Positions 28,836 through 41,225 of a stretch of 64,000 bases of DNA are shown in pieces. Source of the DNA: Actinobaculum massiliense (GTDB lineage Bacteria; Actinomycetota; Actinomycetes; Actinomycetales; Actinomycetaceae); NCBI RefSeq assembly GCF_001457435.1, contig NZ_LN881717.1, positions 1,435,339 through 1,499,338 of the forward strand. The letters are read 5' to 3'. Position numbers and translations under genes: made by a program. The first letter of the stretch is position 1. Each line of letters opens with the position of its first letter. The notes below the pieces were generated by a model that was not told where the DNA came from, did not search any database, and worked only from the letters and a program-made list of their open reading frames with translations.

Positions 28836-29630
28836 TTAGGCGCTGGGAACGATGAGCGGACCGCCGGTTACCGGATCCTCAATAACCAGGCAGTTCAATC
28901 CAAAAATCTCCGCGAGATTCGCGGCCGTAAAAACTTGCTCGGGTGTGCCCGTTATCGCCACCTCTCCGTCCTTCATGGCAATCACGTCGGTGGCGTAGCG
29001 GGCGGCCTGGTTGAGCTCGTGAAGTACCGCCACCATGGTGCGTCCCTGCTGGTTGAGGTCGCGAAAAAGGTTCATAAGTTCAATCTGGTTGGCAAGGTCC
29101 AAGAAGGTTGTGGGTTCGTCGAGGAGCATGATGGGGGTGTCTTGCGCGATAGCGGTGGCCACCCACACCCGCTGGCGCTGCCCGCCGGAAAGTTCATCGA
29201 CGAGGCGGTCGGCGAGCGTGGCGGTATCGGTAACTTCCATCGCGCGGTTGACCACCGCCTCATCTTCAGCGCTGGCCCGGGAAAGAAGGCCCTGGTGCGG
29301 ATAGCGCCCGCGCGCCACCAGCTCGCGTACGGTAATCCCCTCTGGAGAGATCGGGGATTGCGGCAGAAGGCCAATTTGCTGAGCTACCGCGCGGGTTTTC
29401 AAATGCGAGATGGAGGCGCCGTCGAGCAAAACAGCTCCGCGTCTCGGGGTAAGGAGCCGCGCCAGGCCGCGCAGAAGGGTGGATTTTCCGCACCCGTTCG
29501 CTCCCACAATCGCGGTGAACGAGCCGCCGCGGATTTCCACCTCCACGCCGCGAACCACGCAACGCTCCGCATAGCCCAACTCGAGCTGGTGGGCGCGAAG
29601 CCGCGCGGTGCTTGAGCTTTTATCGACCAC
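28836..29630 (-). CDS. Iron-siderophore type ABC transporter ATPase (FepC/FhuC family)
   Basis: A 264-residue ATPase with Walker A GANGCGKST at 43-51, the signature LSGGQRQR at 147-154, and Walker B IMLLDEPTTFLD at 167-178. The family powers import of ferric siderophores, haem or cobalamin. It overlaps the second permease gene by 11 bases. The substrate group is inferred from the FecCD-type permeases and the binding protein divergent from them. Confidence 0.9.
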   Translation of the reverse strand: MVDKSSSTARLRAHQLELGYAERCVVRGVEVEIRGGSFTAIVGANGCGKSTLLRGLARLLTPRRGAVLLDGASISHLKTRAVAQQIGLLPQSPISPEGITVRELVARGRYPHQGLLSRASAEDEAVVNRAMEVTDTATLADRLVDELSGGQRQRVWVATAIAQDTPIMLLDEPTTFLDLANQIELMNLFRDLNQQGRTMVAVLHELNQAARYATDVIAMKDGEVAITGTPEQVFTAANLAEIFGLNCLVIEDPVTGGPLIVPSA

Positions 29631-30612
29631 GCCGATGTCCTTCCCCTATGAGGTACCAAAGCAGGTAGAGCCCGCCGAAAATCACCGTGACCGCGCCGGC
29701 GGGAACGGGCTGAGCGGGCACGTGTTGGTCGATCATATCCGCGGCCAAAAGAATGATTGCGCCGGTGAGCGCGGAATGGAAAATGGGGATTCCGGCCCCG
29801 CGGGCGGTGCGCCGGGCAATCTGCGGAGCGGCCAGGGCCACGAAGGAGATAGGGCCGGCCGCCGCGGTGACCGCCGCGGTGAGCGCTACGCCCAGCCCAA
29901 GAATTCCCAGGCGCGTGGGTTCAACCCGCAGTCCGTGAGCGGCGGCGACGTCGTCGCCCAACTCTAGTTGCCGCAAGGGCCGTAGCGCCGCGCACAGCAG
30001 CGGGATGGACGCGGCGAGCAGGACCAGGGGGCTGGCCACATCTGACCAGCTGGCGAGGTTAATGCTTCCCGCGCCCCACATGGCCGCCCCGAGCGCCACT
30101 TCTTGGCGGGCACGCAAGAGTAGCCAGGTGTTGATCGAGGAAAGCATGGCGGTGGCGCCGATTCCCACCACAATAAGGCGGCTGCCGGCAATTCCGCCGC
30201 GATAAGAGAGGAGGTAAACACCGGCGGCGGTGGCGAAACCGCCCAGCAAGGCGCCCAGGGAATCGGAAAGGAAGGAGCCGGCGAGGATGGTGCGAGCGAG
30301 GATTACCCCGGTGTAGGACCCGGCGGAAAACCCGATAATGTCCGGCGAGCCCAGAGGGTTGCGGGTGATGGTTTGGAAAAGCGCGCCGGCGATTCCCAGC
30401 GCCGCGCCAAACACCAGAGATCCCACCACCCGTGGGGCGCGCCATTCGCGCACCACTTCTGCCGCAAAGCCGTCCGCCCCGAAGAATGAGCGCGCCACAT
30501 CCGCAAAACTAAGTTGCAGACTTCCCAAGGTCAGTGCCCACATGGCAAGCAAGCTGGCCGCCGCCGCGAGCGCGAGCGCGGAGGCGATGGTGCGCAAACG
30601 CCGCTGGCTCAT
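29620..30612 (-). CDS. FecCD family ABC transporter permease (second)
   Basis: A 330-residue permease beginning MSQRRLRTIASALALAAAAS, with eight to ten membrane helices and family segments GAALGIAGALFQTITRNPLGSPDIIGFSAG and LGDDVAAAHGL (read as regions). I chose the ATG at 30612, which forms an ATGA overlap with the first permease and has AAAGGAG eight bases upstream; the open frame to 30762 lies inside the upstream gene. Like its partner it probably forms half of the membrane channel. Confidence 0.9.
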   Translation of the reverse strand: MSQRRLRTIASALALAAAASLLAMWALTLGSLQLSFADVARSFFGADGFAAEVVREWRAPRVVGSLVFGAALGIAGALFQTITRNPLGSPDIIGFSAGSYTGVILARTILAGSFLSDSLGALLGGFATAAGVYLLSYRGGIAGSRLIVVGIGATAMLSSINTWLLLRARQEVALGAAMWGAGSINLASWSDVASPLVLLAASIPLLCAALRPLRQLELGDDVAAAHGLRVEPTRLGILGLGVALTAAVTAAAGPISFVALAAPQIARRTARGAGIPIFHSALTGAIILLAADMIDQHVPAQPVPAGAVTVIFGGLYLLWYLIGEGHRRGR

Positions 30613-31712
30613 GAAAGCGCTCCTTTCCGGCGCACGACGGCGATGAGGACCGGCGCGCCGACGAATGCCGCAACCACGCTCACCGGCATCTCCCCGCTGG
30701 GGAGAATAAATCGGCCCAAAATATCGGCGGTGAGGAGGATGATGGGGGCCCACAGCGCGCATAGGCCGAGTATCCAGCGTTGGTCTGGGCCAATCAGGTT
30801 ACGAATCAGATGCGGAGCCATTAGCCCAATAAAAGCAATGGGCCCGCAGATGGCCACCGCTCCTCCGGCCAGAAGCGTTACCGCCAGCGCGGCCCACAGC
30901 CGCACCGCGCCCACCTGAATTCCTAGGCCGCCGGCGGCGTCGTCGCCCAAAGCGATGCCGTTGAGCGGGCCGGAAATGAGCGCGGCGATTGCCACGCCCA
31001 CCGCGAGGAACGGGAGAGCCGCCAGCAGGGGCGCCCAGCCGCGACCTTCCAGAGTGCCGGCTTGCCACACGAGGGTTTCGTTGAAGGTACGCGGGTTAGC
31101 GAGGCGCAATGCGGTGGTGAAACCTTGCAGAACAGCGGAGAGGGCGACTCCGGTGAGGAGGGTGCGGACGGGGTCGGCGCGCCCGGCCCCGCGGGTGCCG
31201 ATAACAAGTACTAATCCGGTGGCGAGGGCCGCGCCCAGCATCGCCAGCCAGGTGTAATGCGAGGGGGTATGCCAGTTGAGGAGGCCAATGCCGAGCGTGA
31301 CGGCGAAGGCGGAGCCGGCGGAAATGCCGAGGATGCCGGGATCAGCGAGGGGATTGCGGGCAACGCCCTGCATCACCGCGCCGGCCATGCCCAGCGCGCA
31401 TCCCACCAGTAACCCGGCGGCGGTGCGCGGCAGGCGTGAATCGAGAACCGCGTGTGCATCTAGTTCACTTACGGGCCTGTCCAGCAGGGCATCCAGCACG
31501 GTATTTAGCGGTACCGAACGTGCTCCAATAGCAATAGACGCGCAAGTGATTATCGCCAAAGTTATTAAACCAATCAGTAACAATTGCCGCCTTTTACGAG
31601 CTACCGCGGGGTGTCGGGCGCGGGAGGCTGTGGCGGTGGTTGCGGCACGGGTTGCGGTGGGGCTTGCCGCGCGGTCCGAAGCGACGGGAGGAGCGATATG
31701 TGAGGAAGCCAT
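30609..31712 (-). CDS. FecCD family ABC transporter permease (first)
   Basis: A 367-residue permease with an unusual cytoplasmic N-terminus of about 45 Ala/Arg/Thr-rich residues. About nine membrane helices follow, with the family motif GCALGMAGAVMQGVARNPLADPGILGIS (as a region). It is the first gene of the permease-permease-ATPase-SMP-30 operon and is divergent from the lipoprotein gene. AAGGAGG lies upstream of the ATG, but at a rather long 12-base spacing. Confidence 0.9.
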   Translation of the reverse strand: MASSHIAPPVASDRAASPTATRAATTATASRARHPAVARKRRQLLLIGLITLAIITCASIAIGARSVPLNTVLDALLDRPVSELDAHAVLDSRLPRTAAGLLVGCALGMAGAVMQGVARNPLADPGILGISAGSAFAVTLGIGLLNWHTPSHYTWLAMLGAALATGLVLVIGTRGAGRADPVRTLLTGVALSAVLQGFTTALRLANPRTFNETLVWQAGTLEGRGWAPLLAALPFLAVGVAIAALISGPLNGIALGDDAAGGLGIQVGAVRLWAALAVTLLAGGAVAICGPIAFIGLMAPHLIRNLIGPDQRWILGLCALWAPIILLTADILGRFILPSGEMPVSVVAAFVGAPVLIAVVRRKGALS

Positions 31713-31742
31713 AATTGCTTCAATCCTCCTTGTTACAGCGAT

Positions 31743-31761
31743 TCCGGTACGGGTAACCTAA
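31743..31761. promoter_or_regulatory. Candidate DtxR/IdeR box before the permease operon
   Basis: Against the 19-base iron-box consensus TTAGGTTAGCCTAACCTAA I count about 13 matches, nearly all in the right half (GGGTAACCTAA). It is 31 bases from the permease start in the divergent region. Confidence 0.35.
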
Positions 31762-31815
31762 CCCTGGTCAGGGCGTGGGTGCAACCGCGCTCCGATCACA
31801 TTGTCACGCAATTAA

Positions 31816-31834
31816 TAAGGCAAGGTTTTATAAA
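31816..31834. promoter_or_regulatory. Candidate DtxR/IdeR box at the binding-protein start
   Basis: TAAGGCAAGGTTTTATAAA matches about 13 of 19 positions of the degenerate iron-box consensus (TWAGGTWAGSCTWACCTWA), best in the left half. It ends at the ATG, so a bound repressor would block the gene. Two half-good boxes on either side of the divergent region support iron control more than either alone. Confidence 0.4.
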
Positions 31835-32868
31835 TGAAGAAGCTACGTGCTCTTTCCGCCCTCCTCGCGGCGGTCGCACTGTCAGTAGCGGGTTGCTCGG
31901 GTAATGGCCAAGACGCGAAGACGTCCGCTCCGGCGCCCAGCGCTCAGGAAACCACCTCGGCCGCTGCCACCGCCGCCTACCCCGCCACCATCTCCACTAA
32001 GTTTGGAGACGTCACCGTCAAGGAGAAGCCCGAGCGCGTGGTGGCGCTCGGTTGGGGCGACGCCGAAGTCGCGCTCTCCCTCGGTGTGCAGCCGGTGGGT
32101 GCGGCTGACTGGATGGCGTTCACCTCCACCAACCCGGAGTCGAACGGCGTTGGCCCGTGGGTGAAGAACTCTTACGAGAAGGCGCCGGAGATTCTCGGCA
32201 CCATGGAACTGGACTACGAGCAGATCGCGGCGCTGCAGCCCGATCTGATCCTCGACGTGAAGAGCTCCGGTGATCAGGAGCGCTACGATCGCCTCTCCAA
32301 GATCGCTCCGACCATCGGCGTTCCCAGCGCTGATGCGGATAACTGGCTGACCACCACCGACGATCAGGTGACGATGATTGGCAAGGCGCTCGGTGAGCCC
32401 GAGGCCGCCCAGAAGCAGCTTGACGAAACCAAGGCGGCTTTCGCCGAGGTCACCAAGGCTCACCCGGAGTGGGACGGCAAGACCGTGACGGTCGCGACCC
32501 GTACCTCCGAAGGATGGGGCGCCTACATTGACGGCGACGCTCGCGTGGAGTTCATGAAGAACCTCGGCCTCACCCTCAACCCGAAGGTGAAGGAGCTGGC
32601 GGATACCTCCGCCAACGCGTTCTCGATTACCGTCTCGCCCGAGCAGCTCGATACTTTCGACGCGGACGTGATCGCGGCCTTCCCAATCTTCATCGATTCT
32701 GCGCAGATTACCGATGACGCCGGCTGGAAGGCCATTCCCGCGGTCTCCGCAGGCCATGCCTTCGTGGTCGACGGTGATCTGGCTTCGGCCTTCTCCTTGG
32801 GCACGCCGGAAGCCACCCAGTACGCGATTGACAAGATCGCGCCGATGGTGGAAAGCGCGCTGAAGTAA
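31834..32868 (+). CDS. Iron-siderophore ABC transporter substrate-binding lipoprotein
   Basis: A 344-residue secreted lipoprotein of the periplasmic-binding-protein type III (FepB/FhuD) family. It has a lipobox LSVAGC with the acylated Cys at 21, a Ser/Ala/Thr-rich spacer, then the two-lobed domain starting near PATISTKFGDVTVKEKPERVV. Typical segments are ERVVALGWGDAEVALSLG and IAALQPDLILDVK. It delivers the ligand to the permeases encoded divergently. The ligand is inferred; the pocket residues do not tell siderophore from haem. Confidence 0.91.
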   Translation: MKKLRALSALLAAVALSVAGCSGNGQDAKTSAPAPSAQETTSAAATAAYPATISTKFGDVTVKEKPERVVALGWGDAEVALSLGVQPVGAADWMAFTSTNPESNGVGPWVKNSYEKAPEILGTMELDYEQIAALQPDLILDVKSSGDQERYDRLSKIAPTIGVPSADADNWLTTTDDQVTMIGKALGEPEAAQKQLDETKAAFAEVTKAHPEWDGKTVTVATRTSEGWGAYIDGDARVEFMKNLGLTLNPKVKELADTSANAFSITVSPEQLDTFDADVIAAFPIFIDSAQITDDAGWKAIPAVSAGHAFVVDGDLASAFSLGTPEATQYAIDKIAPMVESALK

Positions 32869-36597: not shown

Positions 36598-36704
36598 GTT
36601 CTCAGTGTGCCCCAATTATTGAAAATTCCAAAACCGCGCGAACCGCCGGCGAGATTCCAAGCGCCTCGGCCGGGAAGCGGGCTGGTTTTGGTAGCGTGAG
36701 ATGC

Positions 36705-38114
36705 GTGAAAGAAACGGGCACATCGCGCGGGGATTCGCCGCGCGAGCGAAATCGCAGGCCAGCCTCCGGGCGCGCAGGCCGGGCCGAGCGCTCCGGCCAG
36801 CGAGACTCAGCGGGTGAGCGAGGCGCGGCCAGCCAGCGCGGATCAGCCAGGCGGCGGAGCGGCGAAAACAACAGCGGAGCCAAACGCGGGCGCCGCGGCG
36901 AGAGCGCTTCTCCCGCGCGCCGCGGTGGCAACGCCGAGCGAAACGCCCAGCGTGGTGCTCGGCGCGGTACGGAAAGCGGCCGTGCGAGCCGCGGTCAGCG
37001 AAGCCTACGTGCCAAAGAGCGCGGTGAAAAATCGGCTCGCGGGCCTGTTTTTTCCCGCCGGCGCGCAAGTGAGCGCGAGGCAGAGCGCGAGAATTCTCGT
37101 GATGCGGTTTCGTGCCGCAGGGCCGCGCGAGGCGTGACTCAGCGCGGCGCAGAGTCGCGCGGTGCAGAGTCGCGCGGCGCGAGCGCGCGCAAGGCAACAG
37201 ATCCACGCCGATCAAACCCGCGCCGGTCAGATCCGCGGCGCTCAAACCCTCGCCGCGGGGAGCGGCGCAGAGCGGAGAAGGCACAGCAACGGGCCGAGCT
37301 TACCGCGGCGCAACTCGAAGAGCGCCAGCGCATCCGCAGGATTATCATGATCGGCCTGGGTGCCGTATTGATCCTCATTGTGGCTTTCGTGGTTTTTGCC
37401 TATGCCTATGGCAAGGTGACGGAACGCCAAGAGGCTGTTTTAGAAAAGCCAGACCAGCTGTATCAACCCACCCAGTGCACTAACGCGATGCTTAAAGCCT
37501 CGCTCGCCATGACGGGTGCGGTGGCTGGATCTCCCAGCACTTTCCACGTCAATCTCACGAACACCTCCGAGGACAATCCTTGCTTCATTGATGTGGGCTG
37601 GAAGAACCTTACGGTCGAGATCACCTCCGGCGGTGCCCACGTTTCCGACACCGGCGTCTGCCAGGTTGGCCCGCAGTCAAATATCTTGCTTCTCGATCGG
37701 CAAATGAGCGCCACCTACGACGTTGCCTGGACCGGAACGGTGAGCGGAAAGGCATGCGCCACGAATGGTGATTGGGCGCGGCCCGGAACCTATCAGGCCC
37801 GCGCGATCCTCAACGGCAATATCGAGCTGGGAACTCTTTCCTTTGAGATACGCCCGGCCGGTAGCCGCCCGCAGACAATCAGCGCCACGTCCGAGGCCAT
37901 TTCTCCGGTTGAGAGTGCTTCGCCGTCCGAGGGTGAGACCCCGGCCGAAGGCGAGAACGCGAATGACGGCGCCTCCGCCCCTGCGGATGATGCGCCCACC
38001 CCAGTCAGCGGCGCATCGGCGCCAGCAGAAGGTGAGTCGGCGCTGGCCGACGCAGCTTCGGAGCCAGTGGACGCTACGCCAGGTGCGGATCCCACCGCCG
38101 GGTCGGCGGGCTGA
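36705..38114 (+). CDS. Membrane protein with long Arg-rich disordered N-terminus (unknown function)
   Basis: I do not recognise this 469-residue protein. Residues 1 to about 205 are extremely Arg/Ser/Gly/Ala-rich, with short tandem repeats (RGAES units and the NPRRSDPRRS units near 165-185). One membrane helix follows at about 212-236. After it comes an external domain of about 140 residues (CTNAMLKASLAMT onward) with paired cysteines, and an acidic Ala/Pro/Glu tail of 80 residues. The fold of the external part resembles small Ig-like secreted domains, but that is only an impression. The GTG at 36705 lies seven bases after TAGCGT. Confidence 0.75.
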   Translation: MKETGTSRGDSPRERNRRPASGRAGRAERSGQRDSAGERGAASQRGSARRRSGENNSGAKRGRRGESASPARRGGNAERNAQRGARRGTESGRASRGQRSLRAKERGEKSARGPVFSRRRASEREAERENSRDAVSCRRAARGVTQRGAESRGAESRGASARKATDPRRSNPRRSDPRRSNPRRGERRRAEKAQQRAELTAAQLEERQRIRRIIMIGLGAVLILIVAFVVFAYAYGKVTERQEAVLEKPDQLYQPTQCTNAMLKASLAMTGAVAGSPSTFHVNLTNTSEDNPCFIDVGWKNLTVEITSGGAHVSDTGVCQVGPQSNILLLDRQMSATYDVAWTGTVSGKACATNGDWARPGTYQARAILNGNIELGTLSFEIRPAGSRPQTISATSEAISPVESASPSEGETPAEGENANDGASAPADDAPTPVSGASAPAEGESALADAASEPVDATPGADPTAGSAG

Positions 38115-38199
38115 CCGAACCGCGGACCGACTACACTCCAGCGGGGGCTAGTTGTGGGACCGCCGAACCAGAGACATAAATCAGAGAATAAAGAGAGGG

Positions 38200-38229
38200 G
38201 CGGGGTGCTAGCCGAAGCTAGCACCCCGC
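38200..38229. terminator. Hairpin between convergent genes, probable bidirectional terminator
   Basis: GCGGGGTGCTAGC and its exact complement enclose a CGAA tetraloop (CGNA-type). The stem is 13 bp. T-runs are weak on both sides, so termination efficiency is uncertain, but its place between two convergent stops fits. Confidence 0.7.
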
Positions 38230-38251
38230 CTGGGCTATTCAGGAAACGTCT

Positions 38252-41089
38252 TTAGTGTTGGTGGCCGCGGTTGTTCAGTAAGTCGATGAGGTCATCGAGT
38301 GACAGCCGCTTTGCCTGTTGTGCGGGGGTGGACGGAGCCGTTTGATCCCCGCTTTGGTCGGTTTGCTCGCTACCGTTCTGCTCGCCGCCGGCTTGCTGGT
38401 CTACCTGTCCGGACTGCTCACTAGACTGGCCGCCGTGCTCATGCGTACCGTGATCGTGGCCGTCGCCATGTTCGTGGCTATGCCCCGCCTGAGAGTGATG
38501 GTTGAGAACGTCCACGAGCTCATCGATCGACAAGCGCTTTCCATCGGGTTGGCCGGGGTTACCGTTCTGGCCGCTCTGACCGTTCTCATCCGAACCTGCG
38601 CCGTCGCCGCCGTTGCCGGCATCGCCCGTGCCTGCTTCGCCGCCTTGATTGGTGCCAGCATCGCCAGCGCCCGGGGACTGGTTGGAATTTCCGCCCGACT
38701 GCGCGCAATCAAACGTCGCCGAATTGATTGCTTCATCTCCGACCAGGAAGGTCAGAGCTTGTGGCTGGGAGGTAGCTCCGTTTGCGAGCTCGTAATACAC
38801 ATTGATCCGATACGCGCCTGGCTTATTGAATACCCAGGCAGCGTGCGTGTGCGTGGGGTCCGGGATGTCGATAACGTTCTTTCCCTGTCCGGAATCGGCG
38901 AACAGGCTGAACTTGCTCCTGACCGAATCGTATTGGTAGAGAATGAACCGACCGCCTGCGGGCACGTCAGCGGCTTCCAGATGAAGCTTCGCGGATCCGG
39001 TTCCCAGTTGCTGGGTCGACCATCCCGGCCACGGCATACCACCGCGTTGCTTTTCGTCGAGCTGGAAGAATGAATCGCCTAGCTGGCGCAGAATATCCCA
39101 CTGCGAGTCCTTTTTGAGAATGCTGGTGCTCTTGCGGGCAATATTGGGAACCGCCAAGTTGATCGACGACGGCGTGCGGTAAACACTGCCCTTCGCGTGC
39201 TCGTTGGAATCGTCGCGAACGAGGGTCTGCACGGCCTTGCCATCAGCGCTCTTATGCGCGGAAATATCTAGGTGGCCTTGCCGAATCAAGACCGGATACG
39301 AGAACGGGTTTTCAAGGCTACCGTCGCCGATCGGCTGGCACTGCTTCGCGGTGCCTTCCGATCCGCTTTGCCCGGCGTTCTGGTTACCGTTTTGGGTTCC
39401 GCCCTGGTCCGTGCCTTGGTTGCCACCTTGCTCCGTACCTTGGTCGGTGCCCTCCTGCTTGCCGCCTTGGTCACTACCCTGATCTGCGCTCGAGCCATTT
39501 TCGGTGCCTGGCGCGCCGGCGGGCTTCCCGCCCTGGTAGAGCTTCCCGGACGCCGTCTGCGAATTACCGAGCGTCCACGGCGTCACAATGGTCACCTTCT
39601 CCGCGACCATATATGCCGTGGGAATGAGGTTGATTTTGAGGCTGAAGCCTTGGTCCCAGATCCAGTCCATGGGCAGGACCTGCACGTATTTACCGTCGGT
39701 CCCTACCATTCCCTCAACTTCGATGTCGTAGTAAGGGTTCTTCGGGTCTGAGGTCCATCCGCCGCGAATTGCTCCACGAATCTTCGGATCCGAGAACTGG
39801 ATGGTGGTTGTAACCGTCTGCTTTTCGAAATCCGGGACGCTGGTTATTATGTAGGAAGCGTCTTTCGGGGCGTAGGTTTCCTGCGCGAACGACGGCGCTG
39901 GATCCGACGTCGTCGGGGATGGCCACGAATCGGCCATTCCCGTCACGGTCGCGGCGGGATTGCCGGGGGTGTACTCCACAGCGGGGGAAACCCAGCGCCC
40001 GTGTGCGGCATCGGCAGGGATGAAAACCGCCTGCAGACGCGAGGCGAGTGACCCCAGCATTTCGTTATGTACGCCCACGCCGTTCTTCACCGGCACTTCG
40101 GTGAGTGGATAGCCGTCAATGAATAGGGCGAGCGTGCCCTGGGCGGAGGTATCTTTGGCATCGAAGCGCAAAGTGGAGAATGCCTCTTCGCCGTCGCGCA
40201 CCTTCCCCTCGCCATTCGTGGCCGGATTCTGGTTGGGGCTGACGGTAAAGGAATAGCCGTCCGTATTGCCTTCCGCGGCCGCGTTATAGCGGTCATTCAC
40301 CGGCGAATCTGGCATTGAGGCCGGATCGACTCCGCCCACGTACCAGTTGAACGGAACCGGTGCGGAGGAAATCAGATTGCCGGCCTTATCGCGTGCTACC
40401 GCGCGATACGTCAGGGTGTATTTTCCGGGCTTGGAAAATACCGTCTCATTGTGAGTATGCGTTCCCGCATTGAGAAGCGAGGAGCGGTAGCTGGGGTCGT
40501 GGCTGGAAATGAGGCGGGTGACGTCGGTATCCGCCACCATGAACATTTCCATCCGGCCCGGACCCTCGAAGCCCACCAACTCGAGCCAGAAGGCGCCGTC
40601 CTTGAAATTCTCTACCGGAATCTTGCTATCGGCTCCGAAGCCGGCCCAAATGGGGGTGTTGCCAGGGGCGGGTAGGCGCGGCGCGCGGTACCAGCGGGTG
40701 GCCGTGGCGTTGAGGAAATCGAACCTAGCTTCGCCCTTGGTGTCGAAAATATGGGTATTCGTGCCGTCCCTGTAGAAGCCCTTGCCAACCCAATTCGCGG
40801 TGTTTTCAAGCGGGTAGAGGCTACCCTTGGCTTCGTTCTTGAGCACGAAGCCGCCGTTTTCCCAAAAGACCTTCGGCGCATCGATATGCCCGGCGGTAGT
40901 AATCAGCTTCCCGTCATGCACGCCGAAAACGTGCGCGGCTTCTCCGGAGGTATTCGTTTCATTGCTCGCGCTCACGGCCGGCGCGCTACCCTCGGCGCCG
41001 GAAATTTCATCACTGTAGGCGGGCGCCACGCTCAAAGAGCCCGCTATGAAAAGTGCTCCAGCGGCAAAAACTACGTGGAGTTTCCTCAT
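38252..41089 (-). CDS. Secreted choice-of-anchor M / actinobacterial surface-repeat protein with His-rich tail
   Basis: A 945-residue secreted protein. A signal peptide (1 to about 26, ending PAYS) precedes a first choice-of-anchor M domain (about 45-285, containing THTHNETVFSKPGKYTLTYRA). A long Gly/Gln/Asp low-complexity linker follows, then a second domain (about 590-800, with THTHAAWVFNKPGAYRINVYY). The C-terminus has a motif KRLSIDELVDVLN at 851-863, a His-rich stretch 864-886, and a second copy KRLSLDDLIDLLN at 927-939. No LPXTG motif or C-terminal membrane helix is visible. The start at 41089 gives a clean signal peptide. A palindrome resembling a Zur box lies upstream. The His content and the operator suggest zinc binding; the rest is inference. 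Confidence 0.82.
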   Translation of the reverse strand: MRKLHVVFAAGALFIAGSLSVAPAYSDEISGAEGSAPAVSASNETNTSGEAAHVFGVHDGKLITTAGHIDAPKVFWENGGFVLKNEAKGSLYPLENTANWVGKGFYRDGTNTHIFDTKGEARFDFLNATATRWYRAPRLPAPGNTPIWAGFGADSKIPVENFKDGAFWLELVGFEGPGRMEMFMVADTDVTRLISSHDPSYRSSLLNAGTHTHNETVFSKPGKYTLTYRAVARDKAGNLISSAPVPFNWYVGGVDPASMPDSPVNDRYNAAAEGNTDGYSFTVSPNQNPATNGEGKVRDGEEAFSTLRFDAKDTSAQGTLALFIDGYPLTEVPVKNGVGVHNEMLGSLASRLQAVFIPADAAHGRWVSPAVEYTPGNPAATVTGMADSWPSPTTSDPAPSFAQETYAPKDASYIITSVPDFEKQTVTTTIQFSDPKIRGAIRGGWTSDPKNPYYDIEVEGMVGTDGKYVQVLPMDWIWDQGFSLKINLIPTAYMVAEKVTIVTPWTLGNSQTASGKLYQGGKPAGAPGTENGSSADQGSDQGGKQEGTDQGTEQGGNQGTDQGGTQNGNQNAGQSGSEGTAKQCQPIGDGSLENPFSYPVLIRQGHLDISAHKSADGKAVQTLVRDDSNEHAKGSVYRTPSSINLAVPNIARKSTSILKKDSQWDILRQLGDSFFQLDEKQRGGMPWPGWSTQQLGTGSAKLHLEAADVPAGGRFILYQYDSVRSKFSLFADSGQGKNVIDIPDPTHTHAAWVFNKPGAYRINVYYELANGATSQPQALTFLVGDEAINSATFDCAQSGGNSNQSPGAGDAGTNQGGEAGTGDAGNGGDGAGSDENGQSGQNGNPGQPDGKRLSIDELVDVLNHHSQAGHSHEHGDGHDHGTHEHGGQSSEQSGQVDQQAGGEQNGSEQTDQSGDQTAPSTPAQQAKRLSLDDLIDLLNNRGHQH

Positions 41090-41137
41090 CTGTGTTCTTT
41101 CTAAGTCATTGGAAGTCCACACACAGAGTACAGATAA

Positions 41138-41152
41138 TGCGAATCATTCGCA
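41138..41152. promoter_or_regulatory. Zur-box-like palindrome upstream of the His-rich surface protein
   Basis: TGCGAATCATTCGCA is a perfect 15-base palindrome. It resembles actinobacterial Zur boxes (TGAAAATCATTTTCA type) and differs by two bases per half. On the minus strand it lies between TTTTCA and CATTAT, which are 17 bases apart and could be the -35 and -10 of the surface-protein promoter. It is 49 bases before the start codon. This is where a repressor would sit. Confidence 0.55.
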
Positions 41153-41225
41153 ATAATGAAAATGCTGGGGGCGACGACGCCGGAGCGAGCAGCATCCAAC
41201 CGCGGAAAAGGTGCTGCGGTTAGCG

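Follow-up and report, generated by a model that had tools for sequence, protein, structure and literature searches.

The window, meaning the whole 64,000-nucleotide stretch of Actinobaculum massiliense DNA analysed here, contains on its minus strand a gene for a choice-of-anchor M surface protein with two domains. The choice-of-anchor name reflects the varied anchors found in such proteins. The protein was recognized from its open reading frame and from its match to the NCBIfam model NF038134 (242.3 bits against a cut-off of 55, in two stretches), and the repeat model TIGR03769 also scored over its cut-off. An alternative GTG start codon is located at 41122. The main features of the gene are as follows.

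38252..41089, minus strand: choice-of-anchor M surface protein gene, two domains, 945 amino acids from the ATG (open reading frame and NF038134)
41012..41089, minus strand: probable signal peptide (residues 1-26) without a visible lipobox (sequence and hydropathy only)
40337..40900, minus strand: first choice-of-anchor M domain (NF038134 match), HxD at 40880-40888 and HxH at 40451-40459
38741..39286, minus strand: second choice-of-anchor M domain (NF038134 match), HxD at 39266-39274 and HxH at 38843-38851
38199..38230, minus strand: terminator-like hairpin of 14 pairs, 11 of them G-C, directly past the stop codon

The top-scoring hydrophobic 19-mers of the protein are those of the N-terminal signal peptide. 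Its signature residues are HID (68-70) and HTH (211-213) in domain one and HLD (606-608) and HTH (747-749) in domain two, with a spacing from HxD to HxH of 141-143 residues in both domains, and by analogy these two sites probably bind zinc. The linkers are rich in Gly, Gln, Asn and Asp. The convergent neighbour (36696-38114, plus strand) encodes a membrane protein in which a long, Arg-rich N-terminal part is combined with an extracellular domain; it gave no Pfam or NCBIfam match over cut-off.

The earlier note had described this surface protein as having neither a sortase signal nor a C-terminal membrane helix, and both absences were borne out: a search of the last 65 residues gave no L[PASG]xTG signal, and one of the last 80 no hydrophobic helix. 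By the criterion of an LPxTG-like signal followed by a helix and a charged tail, the protein is not a sortase-anchored one. Two sortase-family genes are present in the genome, and thus a missing sortase does not explain the absent signal. Loss of an anchor by frameshift or misassembly is unlikely, because the stop codon is followed by the 14-pair hairpin, which favours a genuine gene end, and because the syntenic gene of A. suis also ends without a membrane helix. The scan yielded three hairpins against a mean of 3.2 in shuffled sequences, so that the hairpin count alone is no better than chance.

The A. suis orthologue, 48% identical to the window protein in the alignment, is flanked, like the window gene, on one side by radA (TIGR00416 over cut-off in both genomes) and on the other by a gene whose membrane-protein product resembles that of the window neighbour, this likeness being read by eye. 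Its C-terminus, without a membrane helix, is formed by one copy of a short motif, NGRKSINDLVDALNGGILQF, and its last 132 residues contain no His. The motif is absent from the three complete Actinotignum orthologues, each of which has a membrane helix at its C-terminus.

In the window protein, the same motif occurs twice in the tail, with a His-rich stretch after the first copy:

38501..38539, minus strand: helical motif copy 1, KRLSIDELVDVLN, residues 851-863 from the ATG (sequence, relatives and AlphaFold2 helix)
38429..38500, minus strand: His-rich stretch, 9 His in 24 residues (864-887) (sequence; not conserved in A. suis)
38273..38311, minus strand: helical motif copy 2, KRLSLDDLIDLLN, residues 927-939, with NRGHQH between it and the stop codon (sequence and AlphaFold2 helix)

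This arrangement of two 13-residue copies, one before the His-rich stretch and one before the final GHQH with its two His, is as had been described. No other pair of 13-mers within the final 136 residues scores as well as the two copies, whose BLOSUM62 score of 52 was reached by none of 300 tail shuffles (maximum 47), and a whole-genome search with a 52-residue query containing copy 2 found copy 1 at an E value of 2.1e-4. The two copies share five of their 13 codons, while four others differ synonymously and the remaining four non-synonymously, a pattern that would fit an old duplication kept at the protein level, 13 codons being few.

The proposal that the motif is an amphipathic helix was upheld in part, as to the helix. 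Two AlphaFold2 models of the window protein, built from 7- and 5-row alignments, show most of both domains folded at fair to good confidence and the tail as disorder. Helices overlap the copies at 855-863 and 931-941 and, in a model of the tail alone with the same numbering, at 855-864 and 931-944. Confidence over the helices is low in both: in the full model it is 25-30 in the blocks over copy 1 and 48 in the block over copy 2, and in the tail model it peaks locally at the copies, with means of ten residues of 45-60 against about 32 around them. The structural check thus gave a helix over each copy, at low confidence, within disorder and with no partner found. The amphipathic character fared less well, since the hydrophobic moment of both window copies is modest, with about 13% of permutations scoring as high. 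The corresponding figures are 0.25% for the A. suis core and 14-60% for seven other tested cores, so that the moment is unexceptional in nine of the ten cores tested.

A sequence search of the PDB gave no match at E <= 1, and Foldseek with the full model returned generic multi-domain matches with TM-scores by query of at most 0.10 among the matches listed. A calcium-binding dockerin or EF-hand was also considered and rejected; at E <= 10, Pfam matched nothing in the window tail but Zip (E 1.2). Peptides of two relatives matched PF21631 (E 0.016) and PF24408 (E 0.16) weakly, below cut-off.

How widely is the motif distributed? When a model built from the three Actinobaculum copies was run against 200 genomes of the family, the best match outside the genus was a choice-of-anchor M protein (E 0.00215), followed by an unrelated protein nearly as good (E 0.00226). 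A seven-copy model run against 213 Actinomycetaceae genomes gave 25 matches in 21 genomes at E <= 0.1, of which 11 lie in choice-of-anchor M proteins: ten proteins in ten genomes from six of 36 genera. These proteins include the A. suis orthologue and representatives of five further genera, and the presence of the motif in homologues is thereby confirmed. Four of the ten (G212, G077, G160 and G174) were absent from the model that found them. The choice-of-anchor matches take ranks one to ten, with E values of at most 0.0013, and one more stands at 0.053; they give the consensus L[SP]IDELVxxLN. The other 14 matches are weaker (E 0.02 to 0.084), and no HxH signature was found in the 13 that were recovered (L129 was missing). 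The distribution is patchy, since the NF038134-type domain is found in 97 of 200 family genomes against ten of 213 for the motif.

On a wider scale, samples of two larger groups were scanned at E <= 0.05: 396 genomes of the phylum, with 16 matches in 16 genomes other than that of the window, and 394 of the class, with 17 matches in 16 such genomes. At all 33 places, no frame with an HxH signature was found within flanks of 1.5 kb. A common docking signal of many exported proteins is not supported by these 33 places or by the window genome, where at E <= 1 the motif model matches only the two copies in this protein. No paper matched the motif fragments in a search of a limited literature collection.

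The relatives were compared by using 236 choice-of-anchor frames, taken from L022, 80 chosen regions and five named loci and recognized by a sequence pattern rather than by the family model. Each set of identical frames entered once, so that A. suis is represented by the copy in L094 and not by that in L016. Frames shorter than 700 amino acids were left out of the tree and of the anchor table, and last domains shorter than 190 amino acids out of the tree; each comprises 71 rows, the window included. In a motif scan of these frames, nine rows scored at least 22 bits and the next 1.2, a gap that arises by construction because all nine rows built the model, and shuffled or reversed decoys (n = 1416) reached at most 5.3. 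Identity in the 11-residue core averages 64% over 45 pairs, compared with 11-12% for the flanks in register; the best 11-mer anywhere in these low-complexity flanks reaches 47-53%. On a tree of the 71 last domains, the motif label requires at least two changes against 9.5 with shuffled labels. The label thus appears clustered on this sequence tree, and a single origin is not shown, because at least two changes are needed.

Two observations concern individual relatives. In L110, L112 and L096, which belong to one genus (g32), the motif continues into a conserved LNKGExIPVWR, and this extension may belong to the same contact site. A further choice-of-anchor M frame, from L207:11101 onwards (plus strand), has a tail that looks frame-shifted, so that a motif call is not reliable there.

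The position of the motif is constant: in all ten proteins it follows the last HxH, by 56-162 residues, within otherwise unconserved linkers. In eight of the ten, 159-218 residues separate it from the end of the protein, near which there is a membrane helix; the two Actinobaculum proteins are the two without such a helix. The motif is thus no plain substitute anchor, contrary to the suggestion that it stands in for one as such. That the flanking His residues, which had been proposed to bind metal, belong to the element is likewise not supported, since the A. suis tail contains none and six of the ten proteins have no His in the 25 residues after the motif (six residues in A. suis). A metal clasp formed by these His is therefore unsupported as a conserved feature.

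The surroundings of the motif genes were also inspected for transporters. An ABC ATPase signature precedes four motif genes, from two genera, by about 1.2 kb on the same strand, and an ATP-binding-site sequence precedes three further ones by 0.5-1.3 kb; at such distances, neither kind of sequence was found ahead of the motif gene of A. suis or of G077. A partner lipoprotein, as envisaged in the earlier note, was not found, the motif matches of the window genome being confined to this protein. Siderophore-type ABC permease genes and a FecB-like lipoprotein gene are located at 29620-32868 of the window, apart from the choice-of-anchor gene and not adjacent to it; the best match of one of these permeases is an Fe-siderophore permease model, under its cut-off.

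The anchored-repeat transporter of the genome is located at G000:C3 139-146 kb, whereas the choice-of-anchor gene is on C4. The C3 cluster contains matches to TIGR03772 (532.5 bits), TIGR03770 (384.5) and TIGR03771 (271) as well as a protein matching TIGR03773 (295.5), each above the respective cut-off; the motif is absent from the choice-of-anchor frames found in this cluster. The TIGR03772 substrate-binding lipoprotein (L022:7138-8961, 532.5 bits) has a His-rich tail of its own, with a run of alternating His and Ser. A second substrate-binding gene of zinc or manganese type is present at L022:16353-17321, with matches to AztC and ZnuA below cut-off. Just beyond it is a FUR-family regulator gene (G000:C3:151432-151776), one of two FUR-family genes in the genome and the one beside a zinc-type substrate-binding gene; this regulator is possibly Zur.

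A candidate operator was found upstream of the choice-of-anchor gene:

41137..41154, minus strand: palindrome ATTGCGAATGATTCGCAT, 47 bp upstream of the ATG (pattern search of the window)

We take the pattern of this palindrome to be of a putative Fur-family operator type. With up to two mismatches on both strands, the window contains one such site against a mean of 0.41 in shuffled sequences, of which seven in 100 reach two. The core pattern occurs twice in the whole genome, and a reversed control pattern never. The second exact site, TTGNNAATNATTNNCA (G000:C1:32868-32883), is near small reading frames with no evident zinc role. The A. suis orthologue has a similar upstream site that departs from the search pattern at one position. 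Altogether, seven of 20 related genes (A. suis, L173, L178, L111, L107, L108 and L019) have a near-start site with one or two mismatches, three Actinotignum genes have four mismatches and ten others 3-7, all these counts being without a chance control. All eight motif genes from outside Actinobaculum are among the ten others. Most of these probably lie inside operons, but the operator-like site and the motif thus do not go together.

What, then, is the role of the motif? Docking is its most likely role, judging from the sequence comparisons, and the proposal of a docking or assembly element was sustained to the extent that the motif is conserved as such a site should be, with no partner found. 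In the reading that we prefer and to which we would give about an even chance, the window protein is an exported metal-capture protein of the ZnuF/CmrA kind with a helical docking motif in its tail. The exported protein would capture zinc through its two HxD...HxH domains, behind which the disordered tail would extend. L[SP]IDELVxxLN would be a short linear motif of about ten residues, probably becoming helical on contact, and this helix would dock either to an envelope partner or to a further copy. Most relatives with the motif have it placed after the last metal domain and ahead of a stalk that bears the membrane helix. The Actinobaculum proteins have no membrane helix, the motif being left as the C-terminus in A. 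suis or duplicated around a His-rich stretch in the window protein. In these it is the only recognized element that might hold the protein near the cell, the outcome otherwise being release. A further step, that a sortase-independent clip to a zinc-uptake partner let Actinobaculum discard the membrane helix and keep one or two clips, is unlikely though conceivable.

Alternatively, the window protein may be secreted in the manner of a metallophore, its anchor lost, with the domains and the His-rich tail scavenging zinc outside the cell and the motif serving in recapture by the transporter system at the surface. This account, which is possible but on the doubtful side, gains from the lack of an anchor in either Actinobaculum protein, from the His-rich tail of the window protein and from the TIGR03770/TIGR03771/TIGR03772 transporter on another contig of the genome, the lipoprotein of which is itself His-rich at its tail. 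In the parts of PMC12445094 covered, ZnuF, ZnuG and CmrA2 of C. diphtheriae are also reported from the culture supernatant. However, the A. suis tail is without His, and the eight motif proteins with a membrane helix indicate that recapture is not the general role of the motif.

Could the motif alone suffice to keep the protein at the wall or membrane, as a sortase-independent retention signal? Its place at or near the C-terminus of both anchorless proteins would agree with this, as would the absence of a sortase signal from all ten motif proteins against its presence in 23 of the 61 other long choice-of-anchor proteins (Fisher p 0.025, uncorrected for relatedness). However, the membrane helix of the eight others would suffice by itself, and 38 of the 61 proteins without the motif also have no sortase signal, some of them being lipoproteins. 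We therefore consider this role quite unlikely. Least probable of all, indeed improbable, is a conserved spacer or remnant without a binding role, its helix capping or stiffening the stalk and its duplication incidental: the low-confidence helix in disorder, the shortness of the motif and its patchy distribution would suit it, but the conservation is sequence-specific over six genera between linkers otherwise dissimilar in register, and the synonymous differences between the copies fit constraint at the protein level, few as 13 codons are.

On the preferred reading, docking by a metal-capture protein, the motif would bear on surface retention and complex assembly in Gram-positive zinc uptake. 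An 11-residue element shared by ten related proteins and freed of the membrane helix in one genus is a testable candidate for a retention or assembly element.

Among known systems, the closest comparison is with the Znu/Cmr system of Corynebacterium diphtheriae, the gene cluster of which is repressed by zinc and Zur, according to the parts of PMC6711530 covered. The following is drawn from the corresponding parts of PMC12445094. ZnuE, ZnuF and ZnuG share HxD and HxH around regions of about 150 residues, and all three show thermal shifts with zinc. The His mutants still shift with zinc, and thus the HxD/HxH site is not proven even in C. diphtheriae. Growth at low zinc suffers when znuE is lost but not when znuF or znuG is, and loss of either of the latter two even restores growth to a mutant lacking the transporter. 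ZnuF is located in the cell wall, for which none of the six sortases is needed, and how it reaches the wall and stays there without sortase is stated as unsolved.

Like ZnuF and CmrA as described in those parts of PMC12445094, the window protein is exported and has two HxD...HxH regions of about 150 residues. Unlike ZnuF, which has a membrane helix and a charged tail, and CmrA, which has a sortase signal, it has neither, and its gene does not adjoin transporter genes. In the absence of a C-terminal membrane helix, the protein is classed as a variant of the ZnuF/CmrA kind. The parts of PMC12445094 covered make no mention of the tail motif, and the window protein is absent from the passages of PMC6314084 covered. 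Streptococcal Pht polyhistidine-triad proteins, likened here through the description in PMC12445094 alone, are surface zinc-binding proteins that are also located without sortase.

Compared with the transporter-associated surface proteins of model TIGR03773, the window protein is a partial match (181.1 bits, E 3.9e-53, under the cut-off of 190.3), with L110, a motif protein of another genus, over the cut-off at 198.3 bits and the A. suis protein at 99.4; unlike those proteins, it is not encoded beside an anchored-repeat ABC transporter. The models NF038134 and TIGR03769 cover the domain and not the tail, and in the window protein no anchor is seen.
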